Assembly: GCA_028819435.1 (NCBI GenBank) | Contig: JAPPLK010000069.1 | Coordinates: forward strand, 1-41,973 | DNA: 41,973 nucleotides | Reading direction: 5' to 3' | Source of the DNA: Nitrospira sp. | Lineage (GTDB): Bacteria; Nitrospirota; Nitrospiria; Nitrospirales; UBA8639 | Shown here: one piece after another, positions 11,629-25,222 of the stretch | Position numbering within the stretch: the first letter of the stretch is position 1 | Layout: the number at the start of each line of letters is the position of its first letter | Notes under the pieces: generated by a model | Databases searched by the model: none | Told to the model about the DNA's origin: nothing | Seen by the model: only the letters and a program-made list of their open reading frames with translations | Position numbers and translations under genes: made by a program

Positions 11629-14600
11629 TCACGCCTGTTCCAAAACATGACCGATCATCTGCTTCAGACAATCGTCTTCTTCCAGAAAATACACGCCTCG
11701 CTGCTTCCAGTCATCTCGGGACCGTACGGTCTCGTCTATCAGGGCCGGTGGCGTGACGGACAGGATATAGGCATGCAGGCGCACATCGGGATCGCTGTCC
11801 CGGATTTGTGCTTCGGTCTTTTTGATCTCGTGATGCAGGCTGATCTTATGTTGCGCGCGTGATCCGTAGCGGCTCAGCCCTTTGGGGTCGAGAAAAATGA
11901 CGTGCTGGCAGATCTCGTCCTTCAACCAGACGATAAAGTCAGGGTAATAGGCGTAATCGTCGAAGAACGACACACCTCTGCCGCACGTCCGGTTGCGAAT
12001 CAGAAACAACTCTTTGCCGTGCAGGCAGGGGTCGCGGCGTTCCGCCAGCGCGGCCAGCTTCTCAACGACGTTCCTTTCATCCTTGTTCAGGGGAACCGGC
12101 TGAATCGTCACTTTGCGATCCGGCCCGGCATACAGTAACGGTTTATAGGCATGGGCCTGCGTCATGATGACGCTGACGTTCAGATTATGAAAATCGCCTG
12201 CGCGAACGTTCGCTGCCAATTCATGAACGTCTTCGAGCAACAGTCTCTCGGTCGCATCCACGGATAACTCATAGGCTTTGATATTATTCGGATCTTCGTC
12301 GTCCAGCGTGACCACCTCAATCCTGGCATGTTCCCATTGCCGCCGTTGCTTGCGCCAGAATTGATCGGCGTATTCGGTGATGAGATCCAGCGCAACGTCT
12401 TCGAGTGCCGCTATCTGCGAAAATCCGGTCACGGCCAAGCGTTCCGGCGGCATATACAGGTCATACCAATCGCGGCATTTCAGCAGACGGTCTACCGTGT
12501 CACGCTCGATGATCAGGTTATGCCAGCCCCGTTGCTGTTTCCGCTTCAACAGCTTGTCGTACAGGCGCGTTCGGTTGAAAAACGCGACCTGATCTGGTGG
12601 GAGTTCGAAACGTCTTTTTGCAGCCGATTGTTCGGACACGACACCCGAAGACGCAACGGATTGCAACCGTGAATACAAGTCGAGAGTGATGACGTCCTGC
12701 CCTGCACCGGGGCCAGGGAGGACAGTGCGCTCCGTAGAACGCGCGTATTGCACGCCCTCCTTGAGCCGGATCAATTTCAGGCCTGTCCTGAGCATGGTCG
12801 AAGGGCCTGTCTTCCTGGCGAAGTTCCAAGTGACGGGTAAACGGACCGTTTCCCGTTCAACACGCACGCCTTCCTTTTCCAGAATGTCCCGAAAGGTCTG
12901 CATGTAGTTGGCCCGCAAGCCGAAGATATTCAACGTTTCCAGATGGGCCAGTTCCGCACTGCCCGTTGGCAATTCCGCTCCGCTTTTCTGGTGGCGTTTC
13001 AGGCTCATGTTCCAGCCTTTCAAGCGCACACCCCGCCCGAACATCTGGATGATCTCCGGTCCTTCACCGACACCGACGTGCATCAATCCCATGGTCGCCA
13101 CGCGCCACGAGTTCCAGCCGGCAATGAAACGTCGCGCGCCGATGACAATATTCACCGGCGAATCACGTCTGTCCACGTCGGCGAAAAGCCGTTCCGCAAA
13201 ACCGGCTTCCCGGGAAACGACGACATGCGGGTTGTCCTGCTCCGTCAGCAATTTGTACAGCGCAGCGGAATCACCGACGTTGACCACGCCAAAGGCCGGC
13301 CCATCTCCGGCGTGCAGATGCAATTCGCCCTCGCCCGCGGTCAGGTAAACCACGTGCAGTTTCCCCAGTCCGTGAAACAGGGTAACGCACAGGTCCGTAT
13401 AGAGATCGTCGACCGAGTGTGCAGGCACGTGTTCGGAAAGATAGATGAACCGGTCCCTGAAATAGTCCCGTCCACTCTCGTCGGTCAGGCCGGACTGCCC
13501 ATCCAGTAGTTGCCTGATCATAACGCGCATCGCGTTGCCGTCGGCCAGCACCCGGGCCAGGAAATTCAGGATGCTCACGACGTCGGACTGCGTTTCCTTA
13601 TCTGCCTTGCCGGAGCCAGTCACCGTCTTACCCAGGAAGACCCAGAGTGGTCTAGTCACGTTGAAATCGGCCCAAGCCGTCGACTTGTCTCGCCAGGCGC
13701 GGCATTGTTGATAGAAAGTCAGCAGACAGCCCAGCAAGTACACGTCGCGGTTCATGTCTTCCATGCCTTGGGGCAGGTTGGAAATGACGTAATCCTTGCC
13801 GTAGCCATCCTCATGGAACCAGCGATAGGAGTAATCGAACAGCATGCACTTTCCATATGCGTCACGTAGCACATCGTCCTTGCCCGCGATTTGGTTGAAG
13901 GTGGCGGAATATTCGAAGGTGAAGCCGCCACGGGAGAGTTCTTTGCGGCGCTCGCGCCATACCTTGCCCGAGGCACCTAAGTGTCCTTCGTCCACCAACA
14001 CCAGGTTATTGTCACCGAAATCCCCCACGGCGATACGCTTGACACCTTTCTTTTCGGCCAGTTTGTTGAGATCAATAATTTCCACGTGTGAAAACAGGTC
14101 GGCCCCGGCTTCGGCAGAAAACAGCCGCGCGGGTAAACCGCTTGCCTTCAATTCCTTTTCGTGTTGCATTGACATCTGTTCGTTGGGCGTGAGCAGAACG
14201 ACGTTGTTGAGTCGCCCGCCCGAGTCGGCCAGATACTGCCGGTATTGCAGGATATGGGCGTGCATGAGAAGCGTCTTGCCGGAGCCGGTCGCGCTCTGAA
14301 ACGCGATGGTCCGCAGGTCGTCGAGCGTGTAATCCGGCATGTCTCTCGTTAACCGGTGTGCAACCCGTGTCCTGTTCAAGTCAGCACAGAGAGCCTCGGG
14401 ATCGTGAAAATACCTGTCCAGATAACGTTCGGTGAACAACAGGGCGAGGCATTGATACGGCTTCCAGACGCGGCCCTGTTCAGGGGTCATGCGCAGTTTA
14501 TGGCTATGAGCGACGATGTTGGCGTCGTATCGGGCCAGTTCCTCGGCCCGGACCGGAGCGGCCGATGAAAGATACAACGCGCGGGCGTACTCGCTCTCCA

Positions 14601-14748
14601 CACCGACATCGAAACCGGCCAGCACGTCGCGCAGCCGTTCCAGCATGGCACGCATGCCATCATACCCGAACTCTTGACAAATAAAGCGATGCAGGACGAG
14701 GCGGTTTTGAAGGAGAGAGGTCCCGACCAAGCGACGACGCGAAGACAT
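11629..14748 (-). CDS. res: Type III restriction Res-like helicase-nuclease
   Basis: A 1039-residue superfamily 2 translocase with a C-terminal nuclease, the restriction subunit of a type III-like system. Walker A ATGSGKT is at 153-159. The Walker B box is DEGH (253-256) rather than DEAH. The motif V/VI region reads FIAGWNSWRVATMGLMHVG then IIQMFGRGVRLKG. Near the C-terminus YYPDFIVWL followed by VIFLDPKGL gives a PD-(D/E)XK-like core with Asp in place of the common Glu. It needs Mod for site recognition and ATP for one-dimensional diffusion or translocation. An in-frame family B repeat (12781-12808) encodes TGPSTMLRTGL. It is downstream of the DUF1640-like gene and, further up, mod. Confidence 0.88.
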   Translation of the reverse strand: MSSRRRLVGTSLLQNRLVLHRFICQEFGYDGMRAMLERLRDVLAGFDVGVESEYARALYLSSAAPVRAEELARYDANIVAHSHKLRMTPEQGRVWKPYQCLALLFTERYLDRYFHDPEALCADLNRTRVAHRLTRDMPDYTLDDLRTIAFQSATGSGKTLLMHAHILQYRQYLADSGGRLNNVVLLTPNEQMSMQHEKELKASGLPARLFSAEAGADLFSHVEIIDLNKLAEKKGVKRIAVGDFGDNNLVLVDEGHLGASGKVWRERRKELSRGGFTFEYSATFNQIAGKDDVLRDAYGKCMLFDYSYRWFHEDGYGKDYVISNLPQGMEDMNRDVYLLGCLLTFYQQCRAWRDKSTAWADFNVTRPLWVFLGKTVTGSGKADKETQSDVVSILNFLARVLADGNAMRVMIRQLLDGQSGLTDESGRDYFRDRFIYLSEHVPAHSVDDLYTDLCVTLFHGLGKLHVVYLTAGEGELHLHAGDGPAFGVVNVGDSAALYKLLTEQDNPHVVVSREAGFAERLFADVDRRDSPVNIVIGARRFIAGWNSWRVATMGLMHVGVGEGPEIIQMFGRGVRLKGWNMSLKRHQKSGAELPTGSAELAHLETLNIFGLRANYMQTFRDILEKEGVRVERETVRLPVTWNFARKTGPSTMLRTGLKLIRLKEGVQYARSTERTVLPGPGAGQDVITLDLYSRLQSVASSGVVSEQSAAKRRFELPPDQVAFFNRTRLYDKLLKRKQQRGWHNLIIERDTVDRLLKCRDWYDLYMPPERLAVTGFSQIAALEDVALDLITEYADQFWRKQRRQWEHARIEVVTLDDEDPNNIKAYELSVDATERLLLEDVHELAANVRAGDFHNLNVSVIMTQAHAYKPLLYAGPDRKVTIQPVPLNKDERNVVEKLAALAERRDPCLHGKELFLIRNRTCGRGVSFFDDYAYYPDFIVWLKDEICQHVIFLDPKGLSRYGSRAQHKISLHHEIKKTEAQIRDSDPDVRLHAYILSVTPPALIDETVRSRDDWKQRGVYFLEEDDCLKQMIGHVLEQA
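12781..12808. repeat. Family B repeat in frame inside res
   Basis: The element reads CCTGTCCTGAGC...GGTCGAAGGGCC, a partial palindrome that also occurs intergenically at 21046 and 27885 and within mod, ftsk and fmt. Here it adds a few residues to the Res helicase without a frameshift or stop. Confidence 0.65.
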
Positions 14749-14762
14749 CAGCGAGACTCAAG

Positions 14763-14788
14763 TAGGGGCAGACCTGCGTGTCTGCCCT
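14763..14788. repeat. Family A hairpin repeat just upstream of res
   Basis: GTAGGGGCAGAC, loop, GTCTGCCC: an 8-bp stem gggcagac (14767-14774) with gtctgccc (14781-14788). It stands in the untranslated stretch 15 bases before the res start codon, so it could affect res expression. Confidence 0.6.
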
Positions 14789-14923
14789 GATTTGCAGACG
14801 ACATCAGCTTTGACTTTTGCATTGTCACGTGTGACGCAGAGCACGACGGTCAAGATATGGGAAGGAAGGTGAGTTGCGTTCAATGGGTTGAGGCCAGTGC
14901 TTGACGGCAGACGGTCGTGATCC

Positions 14924-15175
14924 TCACCAGACCTTGCCCAGAACCGCTAAAACCAGCGCGACGATCAACGCCAGTGTCCAGCGATGAAATCGCAGTTCAG
15001 CCCGAAACTCGGCCAACTCGGCTCGAAGCTCGGTTTTGAGCGCAAGTAAATCGGCTTTGGTCGCTAAGTGCTCAGTCTGATGATCGTGGATAGCCCGGGC
15101 AATCCCCTTGGCCTGCTTGGGCTCCAAGCCGGTACTTTCTAATTGCTCAGCCAAGGTAATCGTGTCGGTAGCCAT
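14924..15175 (-). CDS. DUF1640-like coiled-coil protein with C-terminal membrane helix
   Basis: An 83-residue protein. An N-terminal segment (LAEQLESTGLEPKQAKGIARAIHDHQ) and LATKADLLALKTELRAE match the DUF1640 pattern. A coiled coil (about 30-60) follows, and then one C-terminal transmembrane helix (WTLALIVALVLAVLGKVW). The function of bacterial DUF1640 proteins is unknown; they often lie near mobile or toxin-antitoxin genes. ATG 15175 is only 8 bases after a good -10 hexamer, so the transcript may be leaderless. It lies between mod and res on the same strand, 175 bp before res, but may be a cargo gene rather than part of the restriction system. Confidence 0.75.
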   Translation of the reverse strand: MATDTITLAEQLESTGLEPKQAKGIARAIHDHQTEHLATKADLLALKTELRAELAEFRAELRFHRWTLALIVALVLAVLGKVW

Positions 15176-15183
15176 AGCGAGGA

Positions 15184-15212
15184 ATTGTATAGCAGACTCA
15201 ACAATTGTTCAA
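15184..15212 (-). promoter_or_regulatory. Putative promoter giving a near-leaderless mRNA for the DUF1640-like gene and res
   Basis: On the minus strand -35 TTGAAC (15212-15207), a 17-bp spacer and -10 TACAAT (15189-15184; 5 of 6 matches). The expected start at about 15177 leaves at most a few bases before ATG 15175. It may also drive res. Confidence 0.5.
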
Positions 15213-15325
15213 TTCGTTTATCGGTCCGAACAGACGATCAATTGGCCTGAAAAAAATCCCGGCAGGGTGCTCCCTTTTCCTGCCTTGGTGTATAGACGGT
15301 ACACCTTACCTAGAGGATTGTCTGC

Positions 15326-15351
15326 AGGCGGGCACACAGGCCCGCCCCTAC
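15326..15351. repeat. Family A hairpin repeat (intergenic)
   Basis: A 7-bp stem ggcgggc (15327-15333) with gcccgcc (15340-15346), a 6-base loop ACACAG and trailing CCTACA. Same layout as the other family A copies, with a different stem. Confidence 0.6.
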
Positions 15352-15401
15352 ATAGCTGCCACCCTACGTCATTGATACGAAAATAACCAACAACCCCCGA
15401 A

Positions 15402-15437
15402 TCCGTCATTCCCGCAGTTTTTAGCGGGAATCCAGGG
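15402..15437. repeat. Family D repeat (GTCATTCCCGC...GCGGGAATCCAG), copy 1
   Basis: Inverted repeat arms ATTCCCGC and GCGGGAAT around a short loop. This is a well-known type of bacterial interspersed palindrome. Copy 2 lies in reverse orientation about 50 bp away. Confidence 0.6.
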
Positions 15438-15484
15438 TCTTTTGTCTTTTCCTTCGTGCCTTGGCCACTTCCCCAAAAACAAGA

Positions 15485-15513
15485 CTGGATAACCGCGTAC
15501 GCGGGCATGACGG
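15485..15513. repeat. Family D repeat, copy 2 (inverted)
   Basis: CTGGATAACCGCGTACGCGGGCATGACGG is the divergent reverse-oriented version of the element at 15402. Together the two flank about 50 bp of unique DNA, an arrangement typical of palindromic-unit pairs. Confidence 0.5.
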
Positions 15514-15666
15514 CAGGAGGTTATTGATACACGGTGTCCAACTCCTTCGGCTAATCCAACCTACGACTGATATCGTCATTCGGACAGACGTGATACAGAA
15601 AATTTGACTTGGAAATATTCGGTGGCTAGTTTTACGGATTTCCGTTTTGTGATGAGCAGAGTAGCC

Positions 15667-15915
15667 ATGTCGTATCCCAAGGTCCAGTCCGTCGAAGTTA
15701 TTGATGATCATACACTATTGGTCAAGTTTGATAATACGCAAACCAAAAAATATGACGTAACGCCATTGCTGGAAAAAGAAATGTTTGCTCCCTTGAGAAA
15801 TCCTGCTTTATTCAAATCCGTGCAAGTGGAGCAAGGTGGTTATGCCGTCGCATGGAACAGCGACATTGATATCAGTGAATATGAGTTATGGAGTAACGAT
15901 CAAACCGTGTCCTGA
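15667..15915 (+). CDS. DUF2442 domain-containing protein
   Basis: An 82-residue protein with the DUF2442 pattern: YPKVQSVEVIDDHTLLVKFDN, then KYDVTPLL, a middle segment MFAPLRNPALFKSVQVEQGGYAVAW, and the final DISEYELWSNDQ (the usual 'I..d.LW' ending). DUF2442 proteins are small and usually lie beside DUF4160 genes in toxin-antitoxin-like pairs; I see no DUF4160 partner here. Start ATG 15667 is preferred, with in-frame ATG 15652 also possible. It is the only plus-strand gene in the restriction island, so it probably came in separately. It is more AT-rich than its neighbours. Confidence 0.8.
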   Translation: MSYPKVQSVEVIDDHTLLVKFDNTQTKKYDVTPLLEKEMFAPLRNPALFKSVQVEQGGYAVAWNSDIDISEYELWSNDQTVS

Positions 15916-16127
15916 TAAGGCGGTGTCTATACCTGTCGGGACGACGTCCGGTTTCCGCAGGGCGGATTTAGTGTAGCGGAATTCGAGTTTGTGCTACGGT
16001 GTCGAGTTACACCGTTGGCTAATCTGACTTACGGCTTCTACTTGGCGGGTCGTTCGTGATAAAGATTCGTGGCCATGGCGTTCCGAAAACGTGAGATGAT
16101 CTGCTGACGCATCACGTAACTTAGTTA

Positions 16128-19100
16128 TCACGCAGACTCCTCAAACATCAATTCCCGAAAAACCGGTTCGATGGTTTTTGCGGTCCATGTTTCAGTCGGC
16201 TGTTTCAGGGCATTTAGGATGTGGTCGCCGTTGGTGTAGATGATGTCGAGTGATTCGGGCAGTTCGGCGCGGTGACTTGTGAACCATTTCTCCAGTGCGG
16301 CGTTGTCGGTTTCGTTCAGGTTGCGCCAGAGGATCAGGCAGTGCTTGCCCTCGGCGTCCGTGCCGGTGATGGCAAGAACGCCGTCCATCCGGCGGCGCGA
16401 TTCGACGCGCAGGCCCAGCAGGTAGTTGAAGGTTTCGGGTAGATCGACGGGGATTTCTCGTCGTGTGCCGTCGCGGACCACGGACAAGGTATAGGCAAAG
16501 GGATCGGTGAAGTCCTGGCCGAGCAAGCAGGCACTTCCCGCGGTTTCTTTACCCAGCGCGTAGCGCAGCCGATAGTCCTCCGCCAGTGTAGAATTTTGTG
16601 CCAACAAATCCTGTTGCGCGGAGTCCGGTGGCGTCACCTCCAGGCTGTCCAGCGTGTCTTCGTAGGATTCGAGACAAATTATCTTTGTAAGTAGACTGAC
16701 GCCTTCCCGATCAATGGGCTTCCCAGCCTTCCACGCTTTTGAATAAACGGCCTTTAATACTCTGGGCACAGTTACTTCATCGAAATACTCTCCCATTTCC
16801 ACGAGGATGAACCGACGATCCCCATCATCCGCTCGATTTAATTCGATTACGGCGTGTGCTGTGGTCCCGGACCCACAGAAAAAGTCCATTACGCAAGCGT
16901 TCTCCGATGCTTTTGAAACACGAAGTGAATCGACGGTTGCGTGAACCGATTTAGGAAAAGAAAACTTTTCAGATTCTCCGAACATCCGTCGAAGAAGGTT
17001 GGTACCATGTTCTGTTGAGGAGTACTCGCTTTTGTCCCATACGGTCAGAGGAAGAGTGCCTTGTTCATTCAGTCTGGATTTGCGATAGACTCCCAGTTGC
17101 TTGGTTTGATCTCGCCTGACACAGAATTCTTCCGGCATGGCTCTTGCTGTCTCCAGCCCCCATTTCCAAGTTTTCTCCGAACCATCAGGTGAGACGGGGT
17201 ACAGAATAGTTTCATGCGAACGTGGAGCTTCGTCCAGGTCCCACTGATTCGTTTCGTTGTTCCATGTTGCTTGCGGGAATCGTACTCCATCTTTATCTGA
17301 GATAAAAATTGGATAGAACAGTTTGGGCCTCGCTTGTCGGTTAGCATTCGTCCCACCGTGTTTTCTAAAGTTGACCCACTCGTATGCTCCTTGTTCATCG
17401 TCGAATTTATACCGCGATAGCTGTTGTTCCGAATGTGACAACCTTCCAATAGTCACATCTTCGTTATTACCAAAAAACAGGGCATATTCATGTGCGCTTG
17501 AAAATCCTTTGCCTGTAGATCGTCCAGAGGGATTGTTCTTTATGGCTACCACTCCGAGCAACGTTTCACGAGAGAACACACCTTCCAAGAGCGATTTGCA
17601 ACGATGAAATTCAAAATCGTCGATGGTGAGACACAGGATTCCGTTACTGACAAGAAATTTTTTCGACGCTTCGAGTCTATTCTCTAAAAACGAGAGCCAT
17701 GAAGAACTTTTATACCCGTTTTTATAGAGAATTTCTGAAGCATCGGTGTTGTATGGCGGATCAATATAGATACAGTTCATTTGGCCTTGGTATCGTGCCT
17801 GCAATAAATTCAATGCCTGGAAGTTCTCGCCGTGTACCAGCAGGCCGTTCAGTTGCTCGTCCAGTGGTCCGGCTTCGGAGATTTCTGTCAGCAGGCGGTC
17901 GGTGAAATTCGCGTTGAAGTGCCGGGTGTCCAGGACCAGGTAGGGGTTACCTTTGAGGAAATCCACGGTCAAGGGGTTGGTATAGGGCGTGCCGTTGCCT
18001 TGGTCCCCCTCACCCTGGCTCTCTCCCAGTGGGAGAGGGAAATTTTCGTTGGTGATTTCGTTAATGGCGAACAGTTTGATCCATTCGTCGTGCTGTGATT
18101 TGTTGGCGGCGATTTCCGCGTATAGAGATTCCGGTATGCGGTCCAGGGTTACGCAATACTGCGTGTCCAGGATGAATTTCTTTTTCAGCCAGAGTTGTTT
18201 CTGAAAATTTTCCAATTGCGCCAGAAAGTCGATGAGTTTGTCGGCTACGTGCCGGACTGCGCGCATCCGGGCCAGTGCCCGGTCCAACCTGGCTGCATCG
18301 CCCAAGGCCAAGTCATCCAAGTTCAGTACGTCGTTTTTCAGATAGAAATCCAGTTCACGGCGCAGGAACCCGCCCAGGTCCTTATGAATGAAGTAGTCGA
18401 AGCTGTTCTTGGCGGTATAGACGGCCAGGTGTTTGTCCAGCACCGTGCGCTCGGGGTCGTGTTCCGTGGGAGCGGGCACAGTGAGCAGGATCTGCCAGTC
18501 CGGTTGCAACGTATGTAGAATCCGTTTTGCGATGGCCTCGTTGATTCGGTCCTGCTGTTTCGACCCGGTGCCGGGAAATGTTTTCTTTTCACGGTCGGTC
18601 AGTGGCCGGTGTTCAAATCGAACGATTAGTTCGCCGCTGTCTATTGCTACTGCCCCCTTCGACTCCGCTGAAGCTACGCTCAGGGCGAACGGATTCCGTT
18701 CACGCTGAGCGTCGCCCCGGAGGGGCAAAGTCGAAGCACGGACAGGCCTTTCGACCGGGCTGAGAACAGGCTTTGTCCTCTCGCTTTCTGCAAGCAGAAA
18801 CCGGCGTTGTTTGCCACTTGCCTCCTTGACGTTGTCCTTTTCGTTGTCCGCTACGGCAATTTCAAACCGCACTCGCCGGGTTTCTGCTCCCATGCCTACG
18901 GCAAAGACGTAGGACGAGTAATTTTCAGTCGTCTTGACGTAGTACTGGTCGGCATTGGCCCAGTGCAGCTTGACTTCTTCGCCGTCGTAGGGGATCAGGT
19001 AGGTCGGCTGACTGCCGCCTGAATACCGGCGCAGGGACATGAAGTCGCCCTCATTGTAATACCGCGCGAAGAAATTGGCGAGATGGTTGTAGACGTCGGT

Positions 19101-19451
19101 TTCCGCAGCGAGGTCAGCTTTGGCCTCGGCAAGTTGCCTTTTCAACTCTTTGACTTTCTGTGTGGTTTCCGGATCAACGCCCAAATTTTTGGCTTGCCCG
19201 CGGGCTTCGGCCAGGTCTTTTTCGAGTTCGGCCTGTGTGCCGGCGGCGTTCTCCTCCAGCGCACCTCGTACCTGAGGCAACAAGTCATATTCGAGGAACG
19301 CTTCGATTTCCTTCGCCTTCAGGTTCATGATGCGGTACAGGCCGAAGTCCAGGTCACCCCGGTCGAGTTGGAACATCTCGCGCAGGATGGCTTTCAGCCG
19401 GTCGAACTTTTCGTTGAATGGCGAAGCAGGCTGGATCCTCTTACTGTTCAT
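16128..19451 (-). CDS. mod: Type III Mod-like DNA methyltransferase with long N-terminal region
   Basis: A 1107-residue site-specific DNA (probably adenine-N6) methyltransferase, Mod of a type III-like system. Motif IV DPPYNTDA starts at about residue 564 and the SAM motif I FFCGSG at about 857 (beta class), with the presumed target-recognition region between. The first ~550 residues are an extension with a coiled coil (about 65-115). This is far longer than classical EcoP1I/EcoP15I-type Mod (around 650). Two repeats lie in frame: family B at 18652-18771 and family C at 18005-18040 (LPLGESQGEGDQG), both in apparent linkers. ATG 19451 is preferred; GTG 19466 is in frame. It follows higA by 51 bp and pairs with res. 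Confidence 0.88.
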   Translation of the reverse strand: MNSKRIQPASPFNEKFDRLKAILREMFQLDRGDLDFGLYRIMNLKAKEIEAFLEYDLLPQVRGALEENAAGTQAELEKDLAEARGQAKNLGVDPETTQKVKELKRQLAEAKADLAAETDVYNHLANFFARYYNEGDFMSLRRYSGGSQPTYLIPYDGEEVKLHWANADQYYVKTTENYSSYVFAVGMGAETRRVRFEIAVADNEKDNVKEASGKQRRFLLAESERTKPVLSPVERPVRASTLPLRGDAQRERNPFALSVASAESKGAVAIDSGELIVRFEHRPLTDREKKTFPGTGSKQQDRINEAIAKRILHTLQPDWQILLTVPAPTEHDPERTVLDKHLAVYTAKNSFDYFIHKDLGGFLRRELDFYLKNDVLNLDDLALGDAARLDRALARMRAVRHVADKLIDFLAQLENFQKQLWLKKKFILDTQYCVTLDRIPESLYAEIAANKSQHDEWIKLFAINEITNENFPLPLGESQGEGDQGNGTPYTNPLTVDFLKGNPYLVLDTRHFNANFTDRLLTEISEAGPLDEQLNGLLVHGENFQALNLLQARYQGQMNCIYIDPPYNTDASEILYKNGYKSSSWLSFLENRLEASKKFLVSNGILCLTIDDFEFHRCKSLLEGVFSRETLLGVVAIKNNPSGRSTGKGFSSAHEYALFFGNNEDVTIGRLSHSEQQLSRYKFDDEQGAYEWVNFRKHGGTNANRQARPKLFYPIFISDKDGVRFPQATWNNETNQWDLDEAPRSHETILYPVSPDGSEKTWKWGLETARAMPEEFCVRRDQTKQLGVYRKSRLNEQGTLPLTVWDKSEYSSTEHGTNLLRRMFGESEKFSFPKSVHATVDSLRVSKASENACVMDFFCGSGTTAHAVIELNRADDGDRRFILVEMGEYFDEVTVPRVLKAVYSKAWKAGKPIDREGVSLLTKIICLESYEDTLDSLEVTPPDSAQQDLLAQNSTLAEDYRLRYALGKETAGSACLLGQDFTDPFAYTLSVVRDGTRREIPVDLPETFNYLLGLRVESRRRMDGVLAITGTDAEGKHCLILWRNLNETDNAALEKWFTSHRAELPESLDIIYTNGDHILNALKQPTETWTAKTIEPVFRELMFEESA
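18005..18040. repeat. Family C repeat in frame inside mod
   Basis: CCCCCTCACCCTGG...CTCTCCCAGTGGGAGAGGG, the same element that occurs intergenically at 21104, 28275 and elsewhere. Read on the minus strand it encodes LPLGESQGEGDQG, inserted just before the conserved catalytic half of Mod. Confidence 0.7.
18652..18771. repeat. Family B composite repeat in frame inside mod
   Basis: About 120 bp built of two family B modules (CCTTCGACTCCGCTGAAG...CTCAGGG and AGTCGAAGCACGGACAGGCC...TTCGACC). It encodes about 40 low-complexity residues (from about RPVLSPVERPVRAS to ALSVASAESKG) between two folded segments. Length is divisible so that the frame is kept. Confidence 0.7.
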
Positions 19452-19479
19452 GGTCTCGTCTTTCACTCTAGGATGATTT

Positions 19480-19507
19480 GGGCGGACACGCAGGGTCCGT
19501 CCCTACG
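19480..19507. repeat. Family A hairpin repeat at the higA-mod junction
   Basis: gggcggac (19480-19487) pairs with gtccgtcc (19495-19502) with one G-T wobble, and is followed by CTACG. The right arm reaches the higA stop codon. Confidence 0.55.
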
Positions 19508-20603
19508 ATGTCGCCTTCCACTCCAGGCGTATTTTTAATTTGTTCAGAGGCGTCTGCCATTGCAGACAGGCTTCATGTTGGAGCCGCCCGACAACAATGC
19601 TCGGGGCTATTCCTTGTTCCTTGGCGAATAGACGAACAGCCATTTCACTGTATGAGGAAGTTGCGAGAAGTTGCTTCCAGTCGCCACGTGGGATGAGAAA
19701 ATTCGAGGCCCATAGGTTGGCTTCCGACTCGACCTCGGCAATTTCTTTATTCGATTGCATCCAATCGATAAAGACCTGTTTTTTGCTATGCAGGAGGACA
19801 TGGGCGGCCTCGTGGAACAAGCTGAACCACAGGTGATCGTCGGTCTTATGGCGGAGGCTGAGTTCAATCACGGCCTTTCGAGGGGTCAGCCACCAGGCTG
19901 CGCCACTGAGAGCAATCTGCGGGAAAGGTTTAAGGAGCACCAAGGCCACGCCGGCTTCATTGCAGAGTTGTTGCGCCTCTTCCAGAGCGCGCGCTACCGG
20001 CGTCTGCGTGAGTCCGCGAATGTCTTTCAACGCCTGCTTGAATCGAGTCTCATTGTAATCGGCGCACTCCTGCTGCTCAGCCTCAAGCTCTCCAAGCCGG
20101 AGCCACGTTGCCAGCGCCGTTTTGTCGCTTTGGAAACTGGGCGAGTGTCGATAGGCAACGCTCATCCCTTCATACTTCGCGTGCCAGGCGTTGACCGACC
20201 CCACACCGAAGAAGGTCAGCAGCTTTGATATCGCCTGGGCATCGGATGCGGGTTTGTCGAGTACGCTTCGGTTTACCAACTCCTTAACAGGAAACGCCTT
20301 TAGCCAGGGAGCCTCCTTTTTTGTCTCTTGTGCCTCGACATGGCGGGCCTTGTGAAGCCGATAGCGGGCTTCTATGCCCAGCCAGATGCTGGCATCAAGG
20401 CCAAGAACTTTCTCAAATTGGAGCGCGGTCTTGGGTTCAACGGGAGCCTTGCCGGCGATGATCTCGCTGATGAGTTTTGCGGAACGGCCACACCGGCGGG
20501 CAAATTCGGCATGCGAGAGGTGTTGACTCTGCAAGTGTTCCTCTACGACCCAGCCGGGCGGAACTGCATAGTCGGGTTCGTAAGAATAGGTCGTGACGGC
20601 CAC
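19503..20603 (-). CDS. higA: HigA-like XRE antitoxin fused to ImmA/IrrE (M78) zinc peptidase domain
   Basis: A 366-residue protein beginning at GTG 20603, with GGAGG about 7 bases upstream. Residues about 10-85 form an HTH of the HigA/addiction-module type: PPGWVVEEHLQSQHLSHAEFARRCGRSAKLISEII...KTALQFEKVLG. The C-terminal half is an ImmA/IrrE-like domain with the zinc motif HEAAHVLLH and the downstream E-x-E-A-N-L-W-A motif. ImmA-type proteins cut repressors, so this antitoxin may self-inactivate or cut another protein on signal. It lies 13 bp after the HigB-like toxin gene and 51 bp before mod. It probably represses its own promoter through the palindrome at 20967. Confidence 0.85.
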   Translation of the reverse strand: MAVTTYSYEPDYAVPPGWVVEEHLQSQHLSHAEFARRCGRSAKLISEIIAGKAPVEPKTALQFEKVLGLDASIWLGIEARYRLHKARHVEAQETKKEAPWLKAFPVKELVNRSVLDKPASDAQAISKLLTFFGVGSVNAWHAKYEGMSVAYRHSPSFQSDKTALATWLRLGELEAEQQECADYNETRFKQALKDIRGLTQTPVARALEEAQQLCNEAGVALVLLKPFPQIALSGAAWWLTPRKAVIELSLRHKTDDHLWFSLFHEAAHVLLHSKKQVFIDWMQSNKEIAEVESEANLWASNFLIPRGDWKQLLATSSYSEMAVRLFAKEQGIAPSIVVGRLQHEACLQWQTPLNKLKIRLEWKATS

Positions 20604-20616
20604 GTCGTTTCCTCCT

Positions 20617-20949
20617 TCAGTGGTAATCAATAACTTCGATGATCGTGATTGCGGTCACTTCATCCGTGTTCATTTCACCTCCGGCTTTCCGCGCCGGTGT
20701 GTCGGCAGGTTCAAAAATCAACCGATACGGATGAATGAGATCAACGGCATACTGTCCGGCACGCTTTCCGTGAAGCTGATGACGCCGGTTTGGTGGAAGG
20801 GTCGGCACCATCGACAACGTTGGAGCCTCCCTGAGCACTGCGAGGCGCGTCATGATCGTGCGCGCCATGCGAACGCTGTAGTCTTTCCGGAAAGCACTGG
20901 CAGAGTTGAACGTTTGGGCGAGCTTTTTTGTCCGGAAGGCGATTTCCAC
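20617..20949 (-). CDS. higB: HigB-like RelE-superfamily toxin
   Basis: A 110-residue basic protein resembling HigB/RelE mRNA interferases, which cut mRNA at the ribosome. Recognisable parts are RMARTIMTRLAVLREAPTLS, then the core RRHQLHGKRAGQYAVDLIHPYRLIFEP, and the final strand TAITIIEVIDYH. GTG 20949 is the start; there is no clear ribosome site and an ATG lies in another frame at 20962. It is the first gene of a toxin-before-antitoxin operon, the normal order for higBA. It contains a Lys/Arg-rich face but catalytic residues vary in this family, so activity is inferred. Confidence 0.83.
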   Translation of the reverse strand: MEIAFRTKKLAQTFNSASAFRKDYSVRMARTIMTRLAVLREAPTLSMVPTLPPNRRHQLHGKRAGQYAVDLIHPYRLIFEPADTPARKAGGEMNTDEVTAITIIEVIDYH

Positions 20950-21223: not shown

Positions 21224-21251
21224 TTGCGACCCGTCGGGGGCATCGTGTAAT
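21224..21251 (+). promoter_or_regulatory. Possible promoter of the di-iron oxygenase/methyltransferase pair
   Basis: TTGCGA (21224-21229), a 16-bp spacer and TGTAAT (21246-21251). The predicted start is about 45 bases before ATG 21302. Weak -35, so tentative. Confidence 0.35.
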
Positions 21252-21301
21252 CTGGATTTGGCCATTGTGATGAGTGAGCGGCCGTTTCTGATGTGAGTTG
21301 C

Positions 21302-22012
21302 ATGAGCCCCGTTCAAGCTATCCCTTCCGACGTCGAATCGCTTGTCCTGGAACTCCAGGCGCATCCGGTCAATACCAACGAATTTTTCCGAACGTTCAAA
21401 TCCCGAAAACTCCGGCCGCAACAACTCCGGGCCTTTGTCCAACAGTACCACTATTTTTGCTTCCATTTCGTCAAGGTCCTGGAAGGGCTGCTATACCACA
21501 CCCCGATCCACGAGATGGAAATGCGAACCAAGTTGGCCAAGACCCTGTTCTCGGAGTTGGGCAGCGGCTCACCCGACCGCGTACACATCCGGCAACTGGA
21601 ACGGTTTGCGTCTGTCATCGGGCTGCAGCAGCAGGATCTCCAATGCACGGTCCCGATCCCCGAAGTGACGACTTACCTTGACACGTTGCGGCGGCTATAC
21701 CTTGACTCCGGTCATTTGACCGCACTGGGCGCGGCCTTGGCCGTCGAAACCACCGCGGCGTCCGAATTCGAATACTTCGTGCCGGGTCTCGAACAGTATG
21801 AGCAGTTTCAGCCCGGCGAGTTGGAATTTTTTACGTTACATCTGGCCGAAGAACAACACCACGGCAATTGGCTGGTCGAGGCCGTGCGCAAGACGGCCCG
21901 GTCCGAAGACGACTTGCATCGCGCGGCCGCGGGCGCCAGGGAAACCGCCGATGCCTGGATGGAATTCTGGGCAGGCATGTACCGGATGGTATTTGATGCC
22001 AACCCCGCCTGA
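21302..22012 (+). CDS. Heme-oxygenase-like di-iron (CADD/PqqC-like) protein
   Basis: A 236-residue all-helical protein of the iron-containing redox enzyme family (HDO fold, related to CADD, PqqC and TenA). Candidate metal ligands fit the HDO set: E85 (FSELGSG), H95 (DRVH), E149 (AVET), then H180-x3-E184-x2-H187 (HLAEEQHH). CADD makes p-aminobenzoate from its own tyrosine, and other members decarboxylate, oxidise or cleave small substrates with O2. The substrate here cannot be read from sequence. ATG 21302 is chosen over GTG 21293. The next gene, a PqqD-like/methyltransferase fusion, overlaps its stop or follows within 14 bp, so the two are co-translated and probably act in one pathway. Confidence 0.8.
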   Translation: MSPVQAIPSDVESLVLELQAHPVNTNEFFRTFKSRKLRPQQLRAFVQQYHYFCFHFVKVLEGLLYHTPIHEMEMRTKLAKTLFSELGSGSPDRVHIRQLERFASVIGLQQQDLQCTVPIPEVTTYLDTLRRLYLDSGHLTALGAALAVETTAASEFEYFVPGLEQYEQFQPGELEFFTLHLAEEQHHGNWLVEAVRKTARSEDDLHRAAAGARETADAWMEFWAGMYRMVFDANPA

Positions 22013-23507
22013 CTCGCTTGATTGCATGACTTCCCCTGTCCCATCCCTTGAACCCCTTACCCTGGAAGGCGAGATACTCCAACAGCGGGCTTGGCGTATG
22101 CCGGACCTCGTGGTCTACCAGCACGGAGAGCAGGAATGGTGGGTCACACCCTTGGATGAAGACCTGCCTTTGGTCCGGCTGAACCGGATGGGTGCCTCCC
22201 TCCTCGGGGCCATGGATGGGCGCCTGTCGATCAGTGCGCTTCTTGATCAATTCGGCAAATGGATCTGTGGCACCAACCAGGAAACCGGCCGGTGGTTTCT
22301 GGAACGGTGGTCCTTACCCCGCTATTCGTTGTGTTATTTCGGAACGGAACCGCCCAGCGGGCACAGCGTCAACGCAAAGTGGGACCTCCTCCTCCAGAAG
22401 GTACGCGAACAATGGCATGAAAACGTAGCGGTCGAAAGCGAGGAACACCTCACGGAATTTCATCACAAGGGGATTCAGAGTCATCACGGCCATTTTGAAA
22501 TCGTGGAAACCACGGTTTCGCATCTTCTCCGGGAACCTTGTGAAGCGCTGCACGGATTCTCCTACGGCCAATTGCTCGCCAAAACCCTCCGGCAGTTGGG
22601 CTGGTGGAGTCCGAAACCCCAACGGGTCGTGGAGGTGGGCGCGGGCCTGGGCTACCTGTCCCAGGAAATGGCAAAGGAATTTTCGCGGGTTGAACGACGC
22701 GGCGTGGAATACATCTTTCTGGATCTCACCCGGGCCTTTCTGCAATCCCAGCTCGCGTTAGCCGGCAAAGCCGGATGGAACGCCAAAGTCCTGAACGCGA
22801 ACGCGGAGCAGTTACCCCTCGCCGAGTCCAGCGTGGACCTGGTCATCGACAATGAAAACCTGGCGGATATGACCCCGGTCCACTTATCCAAAGAAGAACT
22901 GGAAACTCGCAAGGGCGCGACTCCCGAACATCAGCAATGCCTGGACCTGATCCGGAAACTCCGTTTGAACCTGGACACCCCGTATCCCGACGAAGCGATC
23001 TTCAACTACGGCGCCATTCAATTCCTGCAAGAACTCTGGCGCGTGCTCAAACCGGGCGGGCGGGCGTTGCTGATTGAGTTCGGGATCGATTCAGGCTGGC
23101 CGGACCCCGTGCGGCTTCCCGGGCATACGGAATACGAAGTGCAATATACCTACCTGCGCCACGCGGCCAGGTGGTTGGGCTTTCGTGAACAATACTGTGC
23201 GCTACCCCAACTGCTCTCGATTCGACGGGATACGCAAGTCCTGTGCACCGGTGCCGCCTACGCCATCCGGCGCCTGCAGGAGGCTGAGGACAGGGCATTC
23301 GCCGTGCGGGCGTATACTGAAGGGGAATTAAAGGCCGCACTCGGCGAGACGCTGGCCAAACTGACCGGCCTGCACTACCACAACGTCCTCGATCCGGCCT
23401 GGTTCGGGCTGTGGGATTTCAAAACCCTGATTCTGGAGAAACCCGGCGGGTTTCACCGCCCCGCCTACAAGGAATCCCAAGGCTTCCGCTGGTATAGCCA
23501 ACGGTAA
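21996..23507 (+). CDS. PqqD-like domain/SAM-dependent methyltransferase fusion
   Basis: A 503-residue protein if started at ATG 21996 (GGATGG upstream, 17-bp overlap with the previous gene) or 493 from ATG 22026. Residues about 34-95 resemble a PqqD-type peptide-recognition fold: a two-strand hairpin, then LVRLNRMGASLLGAMDG and SISALLDQFG. Residues about 195-400 form a class I methyltransferase: motif I VVEVGAGLGY (211-220), the strand IFLDLT (240-245) and motif ANAEQLPLAESSVDLVIDN (269-287); KPGGRALLIEFG follows later. PqqD domains usually present a peptide or carrier to a modifying enzyme, so the substrate may be peptide-bound. The neighbour di-iron oxygenase supports a biosynthetic role. 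The product is unknown. Confidence 0.75.
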   Translation: MPTPPDSLDCMTSPVPSLEPLTLEGEILQQRAWRMPDLVVYQHGEQEWWVTPLDEDLPLVRLNRMGASLLGAMDGRLSISALLDQFGKWICGTNQETGRWFLERWSLPRYSLCYFGTEPPSGHSVNAKWDLLLQKVREQWHENVAVESEEHLTEFHHKGIQSHHGHFEIVETTVSHLLREPCEALHGFSYGQLLAKTLRQLGWWSPKPQRVVEVGAGLGYLSQEMAKEFSRVERRGVEYIFLDLTRAFLQSQLALAGKAGWNAKVLNANAEQLPLAESSVDLVIDNENLADMTPVHLSKEELETRKGATPEHQQCLDLIRKLRLNLDTPYPDEAIFNYGAIQFLQELWRVLKPGGRALLIEFGIDSGWPDPVRLPGHTEYEVQYTYLRHAARWLGFREQYCALPQLLSIRRDTQVLCTGAAYAIRRLQEAEDRAFAVRAYTEGELKAALGETLAKLTGLHYHNVLDPAWFGLWDFKTLILEKPGGFHRPAYKESQGFRWYSQR

Positions 23508-23508
23508 G

Positions 23509-24960
23509 TTACAATGACGTCTGCTCGGGCTGAAAGGCCTTCTTGCCCATCACCAGGTTGTATCCAACCGTGTAACAGTATTCGCTCGCCGGGACAAATT
23601 CAAAGTTGACCCCGTCAATCACTTTGGAGGTTTTCTGTTGTTTTGACGTGACGAGCATGTCTCTCAGATCGTTTGAACGGCAAAAGCGGAGACTGCTTTT
23701 GAGTTCATGGGAATCTTCCGAAAACCGGTCGGACCACATGACTTCCATGGCCCATTGGATGGTCGACTCAGGCCCTCTAAAGACCATGTCAACTTCTCCG
23801 CCAGGCCACCGGGAATAATGGAACCTGGATATATCCGCATGAAACCACTGGGAGAATATTGCCGTTTCTATTAATGAACCCATTGATTCGTCATGGGATT
23901 TGACCGGAGCAAACAGGGCGCAATAGATCGACGGATTGGTCAGGTACACTTTGAAAAAATTTGCCCGTCTGAACCGTCGCCCACTTTGGTCAACCCGATG
24001 AAGCACCCTAAGCAAAAAAGCAGCTTCAAGATATTCGATGTATCGTTTAATGGTATTCTTCGCGACACCGGAATTTTGTGTCAGGTCCTCCAAGGAAACC
24101 TCGTTGGCCGTATTAAACGCAAGCGTGGTGAATAACGAGTTCAGTTCCTGGATGTCCTGGATACCATAGAGGCTCGGCAAATCGCGTAGGAGAACCTTGT
24201 CGACAATGTCCGCCTTGACGAATCTCCCCGGATCTTTCTGGATATCGGCTGAAAAGACGACCTCCGGATACCCGCCGTAGTTGAGGTAATCAACAAACAC
24301 TTTATTCAAATGCTCGATATCCTGTGCGTGGGAAAAGTTTGGCCCCTTCGACAACTTTGGACGCTTCAATTTGGGCATTGGCTTCTTGGAACTGTCCAAT
24401 AGGGTCAGATATTCATGGAACGTGAGTGGAGGCAGGAGAAACTCCGTAAACCTTCCGGCACCCGATTCTACGCTCTTCAGCCGTAGGGCGACTGCAGCGG
24501 AACCCGACGTGATCGGTTTCACCGCAGGGAACGCATCCATCAGTGTCTTCAGGTGGATTTCCCAGTCCTTCAGGTACTGAATCTCGTCATAAAAGACATA
24601 CGTGGGAGTTGTCTTGTAGTCAGTCCCGCTGACCTCACCAAAAAATTCCAGAAGCTGCTCGAGGCCGAGGCTGTTGTACAAAGGGTGATCAATGGAAAAG
24701 TAGACGATTTGCTTTGGCGGAATTGTTTGCAGGAGCCGACTAATGGTGTGATGAATGAGGACGGTTTTCCCGACTCGTCGGGGGCCCATAAGAAGAATTG
24801 CTCGTCGAATATTTTGACTTTCGATAAGGGGATAAAAGAGTTCCAAATAGGGTCGGGGCTTCCACTGGGTATAGTTCGAGGGCACCTCATGAGGCCTATC
24901 CCACCAGGGATTTTCAAATTCAATTCGCTTTAATATCTGAGCTTTCGGAACGTCTCTCAT
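23509..24960 (-). CDS. AAA+ ATPase of the DUF4143-like family
   Basis: A 483-residue protein from ATG 24960; an in-frame TTG at 25023 is less likely. Walker A MGPRRVGKTVLIH and Walker B YVFYDEIQYLKDWE are followed by TSGSAAVALRLKS and a LPPLTFHEYLTLL segment, then a C-terminal DUF4143-like domain with HADISRFHYSRWPGGEVDMVF. It is related to, but clearly distinct from, the ATPase at 5934. Cellular function of the family is unknown. It is convergent with the methyltransferase gene (1 bp between the stops). Codon use is more AT-rich than its neighbours, which suggests lateral transfer. Confidence 0.85.
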   Translation of the reverse strand: MRDVPKAQILKRIEFENPWWDRPHEVPSNYTQWKPRPYLELFYPLIESQNIRRAILLMGPRRVGKTVLIHHTISRLLQTIPPKQIVYFSIDHPLYNSLGLEQLLEFFGEVSGTDYKTTPTYVFYDEIQYLKDWEIHLKTLMDAFPAVKPITSGSAAVALRLKSVESGAGRFTEFLLPPLTFHEYLTLLDSSKKPMPKLKRPKLSKGPNFSHAQDIEHLNKVFVDYLNYGGYPEVVFSADIQKDPGRFVKADIVDKVLLRDLPSLYGIQDIQELNSLFTTLAFNTANEVSLEDLTQNSGVAKNTIKRYIEYLEAAFLLRVLHRVDQSGRRFRRANFFKVYLTNPSIYCALFAPVKSHDESMGSLIETAIFSQWFHADISRFHYSRWPGGEVDMVFRGPESTIQWAMEVMWSDRFSEDSHELKSSLRFCRSNDLRDMLVTSKQQKTSKVIDGVNFEFVPASEYCYTVGYNLVMGKKAFQPEQTSL

Positions 24961-25222
24961 CGGGAATCCCGCTAGGCTTGGTCTTGCCAAGTATGTAATA
25001 TCAGAACGATCGGCTAAGATCAATGCATTGATCTTAATCTGAGATTCAACAAAACTTCATTGTTTATCCAACGGTTGTATTAGAAAAGTGCTATGGATAC
25101 AGGTTCCAGGAGCGGGCGAGGTTTACCAGGACTCCTTCCCGTACCCCGTACTCGCTGACCACACACCGTGCGGCGTTCAGTTCTTGCATCACGCAACGAA
25201 GGATAAGACTCCTGCATCGGCT

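Follow-up and report, generated by a model that had tools for sequence, protein, structure and literature searches.

A heme-oxygenase-like oxygenase and a probable MidA-related methyltransferase form a two-gene unit of Nitrospirales

Results

Organization of the locus

The window, i.e., the whole 41,973-nucleotide stretch of Nitrospira sp. DNA analysed here (contig JAPPLK010000069.1 of assembly GCA_028819435.1, a genome of 2.6 Mb in 114 contigs), carries two adjacent genes on its forward strand. The first, at 21302..22012 (+; ATG at 21302, last codon ending at 22009, stop codon at 22010-22012), encodes a 236-residue oxygenase of the iron-containing redox/heme-oxygenase-like family and of the superfamily of heme-oxygenase-like dimetal oxidases (hereafter, the HDO), and the second, at 22026..23507 (+, stop included), encodes a 493-residue methyltransferase. 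Thirteen bases separate the HDO stop codon from the methyltransferase ATG at 22026, and an alternative ATG at 21996 would make the two genes overlap; a previous reading of this DNA from the sequence alone (the sequence-only reading) had described them as overlapping or abutting. The junction is TGAATG in several close relatives, and across 20 pairs the gap before the methyltransferase match ranges from 1 to 149 bases. A promoter-like element, TTGCGA-18 nt-TAATCT, lies 5' of the HDO gene at 21224..21253 (+) and is kept across the 11 upstream regions that we aligned; a scan with the generic promoter consensus did not list it and returned a sole match no better than those in shuffled sequence, and an Rfam scan over the locus gave no match.

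Genes for a type III restriction system, a PD-Lambda-2-like protein and an AAA/DUF4143 protein flank the pair in the window. The upstream stretch at 11629-20949 is a defence island adjoining the pair; besides type III restriction/modification genes it holds a sub-threshold HigB-like toxin and an IrrE/HTH protein of PD-Lambda-2_B type. The AAA_14/DUF4143 protein (23509-25023, minus strand), which matches the candidate defence model PDC-S01, is encoded by a gene whose end lies 2 bases away from the stop codon of the methyltransferase; it is present at four of the related loci (L077, L078, L081 and L082) and absent from another (L076). Housekeeping genes, namely RecG and, in many genomes, also Ppx/GppA (by eye), lie downstream of the pair, and a second, small methyltransferase of the TehB/Methyltransf_25 type lies just 5' in the same direction in 9 of 41 compared regions, which include nine paralogue regions without the pair. 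No substrate gene was linked to the pair in the neighbourhoods compared.

Distribution and coupling of the two genes

Among 245 Nitrospirota genomes sampled evenly, 77 were of Nitrospirales (the order to which the window belongs), and the methyltransferase was found in 76 of these. In the other classes of the phylum, weak, low-identity matches occurred in 6 of the 245 genomes (E 5e-5 to 8e-4), and none of the five regions that were read (all but that of G224) held an orthologue: by eye, the match was an ordinary MidA-type protein in three of them, a different class I methyltransferase in the fourth and a sensor-kinase-like ORF in the fifth (G064). By sequence comparison, then, the methyltransferase is without clear counterparts in other Nitrospirota classes. 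Named genomes were scanned with a single-sequence query: among the best 80 of 174 loci, the closest named relatives were Nitrospira/Nitrospirales metagenome bins, and 78 records were titled Nitrospira, Nitrospirales, Nitrospiraceae, Nitrospirae or Nitrospirota, the other two, one Nitrospinota and one Opitutia, being taken for misbinned or mislabelled contigs. The HDO gene lay immediately upstream (1-149 bp) at 25 of these 80 loci.

In a second sample, 50 of 59 relatives had the methyltransferase, which was absent from the four genomes of family f4, and 27 had a close HDO. All 27 also had the methyltransferase, and in 26 of them the two genes were side by side. In the remaining genome (G030) the two genes sit at the ends of separate contigs, while in one of the 26 (G022) the HDO adjoins only the N-terminal fragment of a split methyltransferase. 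In that single-contig genome (L062, L079) the C-terminal piece lies about 540 kb from the N-terminal piece, representing either a rearrangement or a misassembly. Conversely, 23 of the 59 genomes had the methyltransferase without the HDO, so the HDO step is optional. Conservation of the pair at 55-97% protein identity in many genomes cannot be attributed to chance, and comparison of neighbourhoods in relatives bears out the sequence-only reading in treating the two genes as coupled; the pair is a two-gene unit of Nitrospirales. Distances between HDO proteins and between their methyltransferases were also correlated (Spearman 0.77, Mantel p <= 0.0005, n = 20), a co-divergence compatible with a pair that was inherited together and lost in places, host kinship alone giving part of the correlation. 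Among viral contigs no match to the pair was found, and among plasmids the HDO was found in 3 records and the methyltransferase in none.

An HDO with a complete ligand set and without the p-aminobenzoate residues

The HDO matched two Pfam families above their cut-offs (PF14518 Haem_oxygenas_2, E 1.1e-23; PF03070, E 3.8e-10), and its AlphaFold2 model (mean pLDDT 88) has the seven-helix heme-oxygenase-like fold. Alignment with CADD, BesC and 9pj4 places the six metal ligands, three histidines and three carboxylates, at E85, H95, E149, H180, E184 and H187 in ATG numbering (codons starting at 21554, 21584, 21746, 21839, 21851 and 21860, respectively, and together spanning 21554..21862, +). These positions match those of the CADD ligands, the His/carboxylate pattern is common to BesC, and all six residues are invariant in the 20 HDO sequences of our alignment (A2; 55-95% identical to the window protein). 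The HDO-family assignment and the complete ligand set proposed from the sequence alone were hence both correct, and the protein would be expected, from these residues, to bind two metals (Fe/Fe or Fe/Mn) and to activate O2 at a 3-His/3-carboxylate site.

Structural comparison of the model with VIA-align gave similar scores to HrmI (Z 25.0), BesC (24.8), CADD (24.3) and PqqC (23.3); since these lie within about 2 units of each other, the fold is silent on the reaction. BesC and HrmI, which act on lysine derivatives, share the fold over 213-225 residues (Z 24.8-25.0) but are only 14-19% identical to the window HDO and have other neighbour genes, and the NCBIfam model for BesC was missed (52.3 bits vs. 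a cut-off of 500). Within its known superfamily, the HDO makes up a new subgroup. A further paralogue, 25-28% identical and sharing the six ligand positions, occurs at L067-L075 (genomes G027, G029, G015, G018, G039, G040, G042, G051 and G053), where the neighbours resemble homogentisate dioxygenase, the fumarylacetoacetase family, 4HPPD and a CoA ligase, all below NCBIfam cut-offs.

The sequence-only reading had also raised the supply of p-aminobenzoate as a possible role, and this proposal did not survive closer comparison. In both sequence and fold, the solved structures nearest to the HDO include those of CADD and the Nitrosomonas-type enzyme, and the p-aminobenzoate synthases CADD and NePabS share its fold and metal ligands. 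According to two reports (PMC11965152, PMC13108848), however, a self-sacrificing p-aminobenzoate synthase requires a sacrificed Tyr (Tyr27 of CADD) and an amine-donor Lys (Lys152), and in a profile alignment Tyr27, Tyr43 and Lys152 of CADD correspond to Phe29, Phe45 and Phe159 of the window HDO, Phe29 being invariant in 20 of 20 HDO sequences (A2). The CADD model TIGR04305 was missed by a wide distance (51.9 bits vs. a 200-bit cut-off), and class IV aminotransferases resembling PabC were found in 41 of 41 relatives (2 of 41 above the proteobacterial PabC cut-off). For these reasons we reject the annotation as a p-aminobenzoate synthase, and consider a CADD-type self-sacrificing enzyme with a methyltransferase partner to be extremely improbable.

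A class I methyltransferase with likely MidA kinship

The class I nature of the methyltransferase, already recognised in the sequence-only reading, is clear from its Pfam matches (PF13649 Methyltransf_25, 5e-10; Methyltransf_11, 8.3e-10) and its invariant SAM-binding motif (E203, G205, G207 and G209). What that reading did not include is a kinship with MidA/NDUFAF7. For the catalytic domain, about residues 133-474 (22422..23447, +), the five best VIA-align matches in the PDB were all MidA/COG1565 proteins (Z 17.5-18.6 over 266-273 residues), followed by a row at Z 16.9 and, below that, ordinary small-molecule and protein methyltransferases; with a lead of about 0.6 Z (17.5 vs. 16.9), MidA counts as tied with what follows. 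Profile comparison with hhalign aligned the protein to MidA at 93.9% (E 1.5e-7, 202 columns) and placed D-N-E-N-L-A-D-M-T-P-V of the window opposite L-S-N-E-L-V-D-A-F-P-V of MidA, so that the MidA motif N-E-L-x-D-x-x-P-V has a counterpart here (codons of N276 E277 N278 L A D M T P V at 22851..22880, +). Within this counterpart N276, E277, N278, A280, D281, M282 and T283 are invariant in 36 methyltransferase sequences, and P284 is kept in at least 90%.

MidA and NDUFAF7 (PF02636, COG1565), protein arginine methyltransferases that act on the 49-kDa subunit of complex I, appear to share the domain architecture over 266-273 residues (Z about 18), but the window protein differs by an extra N-terminal domain and by missing PF02636 (18.1 bits vs. 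a cut-off of 23.3), and a profile search of PDB sequences placed LahSB and other generic methyltransferases first, with no MidA among the matches listed. Hence, 'MidA-like' is our best lead rather than a statement of membership, and the protein is likely a divergent MidA/NDUFAF7 relative. It is not the canonical MidA, which coexists above its cut-off in 40 of 41 genomes and, in the genome of the window, is a separate gene directly 5' of what look by eye like complex I genes. A PADLOC match to mad2 over the SAM domain (E 1e-12) was put down to the general relatedness among class I methyltransferases. A distant MidA-like domain is also found in a further Nitrospirales protein, about 480 aa long (L213 117-1631, L214 5193-6629, L215 and L217); inspection by eye revealed nothing PqqD-like at its N-terminus, and the two proteins are distinct.

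Partial copies of the methyltransferase 3' end were seen downstream of the gene at 8 of 64 loci that held the full gene and at least 1.5 kb of downstream sequence, in part of Nitrospira; the window locus has no such copy. At these 8 loci every copy has the orientation of the gene and stops no more than 60 bases from the gene's end, and no copies of other parts of the gene were found at the 64 loci, an upstream match at L148 being the gene itself. Further loci with copies came from other comparisons (in all, L186, L187, L189-L193, L195-L197, L124, L133, L162, L171 and L180); the copies span roughly the last 40-440 bases, sometimes as two units in a row. The DNA between gene and copy encodes small toxin-antitoxin-like or nucleotidyltransferase modules (such as BrnT, HepT with a nucleotidyltransferase, and Gp49-like with HTH), and no integrase was recognised by eye near the copies. 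The pattern resembles repeated, serial insertion at the 3' end of a conserved protein-coding gene.

The N-terminal domain and the search for a precursor peptide

The sequence-only reading had described the methyltransferase as fused to a PqqD-type domain that might present a peptide to the enzymes. The region in question, about residues 27-80 (22104..22265, +), is predicted to form strands at 30-32, 38-40 and 50-52 followed by helices at 54-62 and 69-79 (pLDDT of the block about 45-83, a moderate to low confidence), a third helix not being confidently predicted. This predicted order of strands and helices, together with an L-N-x-x-G ... D-G motif, resembles that of PqqD and RiPP recognition elements. 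PqqD (PF05402) was also the commonest Pfam match among 19 such N-terminal domains (6 of 19, best E 0.022, none above the cut-off); the winged-helix PKMT_2nd came second with 3 of 19 (its best E being 0.054), and the window's own domain had no Pfam match in this test. Scanning 21 genomes with PF05402 gave sub-threshold matches, two of which, in G002 and G043, fell exactly on the domain (13.0 and 12.1 bits vs. a 23.4 cut-off; profile positions 13-38), and no match in the genome of the window; hhalign against three PF05402 proteins from relatives found the same register at only 1.9% probability. The fused domain stands as a plausible winged helix of PqqD type, as judged from the predicted structure, and it falls below every curated cut-off.

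The fold would be compatible with the proposed peptide presentation, but the domain is kept in the methyltransferases of genomes without the HDO, so it is part of the methyltransferase and may have no role in the work of the HDO. That no precursor peptide is obvious was confirmed more broadly: with long ORFs masked to suppress antisense shadows of Ppx, no conserved short ORF was shared between groups within +/-4 kb of the methyltransferase at 80 loci, and a precursor peptide nearby was accordingly rejected.

Discussion

Because the HDO lacks the residues for p-aminobenzoate formation, the pair probably carries out a two-step modification of a shared substrate. Our preferred reading, held tentatively and with somewhat less than even confidence, is that the methyltransferase modifies a side chain of a protein or peptide and that the HDO oxidises the same substrate. 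Under this hypothesis, the methyltransferase would dock its substrate through the N-terminal winged-helix (PqqD-like) domain, and the SAM-dependent domain would N-methylate a side chain of a protein or peptide encoded elsewhere, which, by analogy with MidA, might be that of arginine. The HDO, where present, would oxidise this substrate before or after methylation. An HDO acting on methylated arginine would be known chemistry, as SznF has an HDO domain that carries out two hydroxylations of N-omega-methyl-L-arginine (PMC13108848). SznF, as described there, differs in using a free amino acid and a 3H/4C ligand set, and the likeness is one of description. In favour of the preferred reading are the fold and ligands of the HDO, the strict co-occurrence and co-divergence of the pair, the conserved upstream element and the likely MidA kinship; against it, class I methyltransferases share one fold, the methyltransferase is common without the HDO, a canonical MidA coexists, no substrate gene is linked and the N-terminal model is of moderate to low confidence.

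A small-molecule pathway is a serious rival, even if we judge it somewhat unlikely. In such a pathway, a quinone, lipid or amino-acid-derived metabolite would be C-, N- or O-methylated and the product oxidised by the HDO. Generic small-molecule methyltransferases do score close to MidA in the structural comparison (Z 15-17), and, among annotated plasmid relatives, those nearest to the HDO (32% and 26% identical) adjoin an aminotransferase, an FAD oxidoreductase, a TauD-type dioxygenase and an ATP-grasp protein, neighbours that look like the synthesis of an amino-acid-derived metabolite. Nitrospira is also described as making methyl-plastoquinone (PMC12324825). However, the quinone methyltransferase MpqE is a separate gene, above its cut-off in 19 of 21 genomes including that of the window, and the methyltransferase of the pair was therefore ruled out as MpqE; further biosynthetic genes are lacking beside the pair in most genomes, and a docking domain would be unexpected in a small-molecule enzyme. 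Alternatively, both enzymes might act on a precursor peptide whose leader is bound by the PqqD-like domain, yielding a RiPP-like cofactor or metabolite. The Pfam matches (PqqD the commonest, 6 of 19) and the predicted strand and helix order speak for this possibility, as does a complete pqqBCDE set adjoining the pair in one genome (G039, C68; L063 8518-11606), all four genes of which exceed their NCBIfam cut-offs. We nonetheless find it doubtful, given that no PqqD cut-off was passed, that the alignment to PF05402 proteins was so weak, that no short ORF was conserved within 4 kb across groups in the 80 loci, and that the PQQ neighbour was seen in that genome only.

In our literature search, judged from listings, no description was found of an HDO paired with a PqqD-like/methyltransferase protein, including in Nitrospira, and the methyltransferase is an uncharacterised lineage-specific protein. 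The main nitrite oxidisers and the complete ammonia oxidisers belong to Nitrospirales. A bolder form of our preferred reading, modification of a protein or peptide side chain, is that a MidA-like methyltransferase with a docking domain of its own marks one of the core proteins, such as a subunit at a quinone site or in nitrite oxidation, with the HDO further oxidising the methylated residue, which would make this a Nitrospirales-specific modification. We regard this form as improbable; if true, it would mean a new methyl/oxidised side chain in the respiratory machinery. What the present results do accomplish is to remove a tempting but wrong annotation, that of a p-aminobenzoate synthase, from a gene coupled to a methyltransferase that is near-universal and highly conserved in the sampled Nitrospirales. 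The HDO superfamily is rich in unusual oxidations, and identifying the substrate of the pair would account for a gene that defines this lineage and could bring to light an additional modification that depends on O2.
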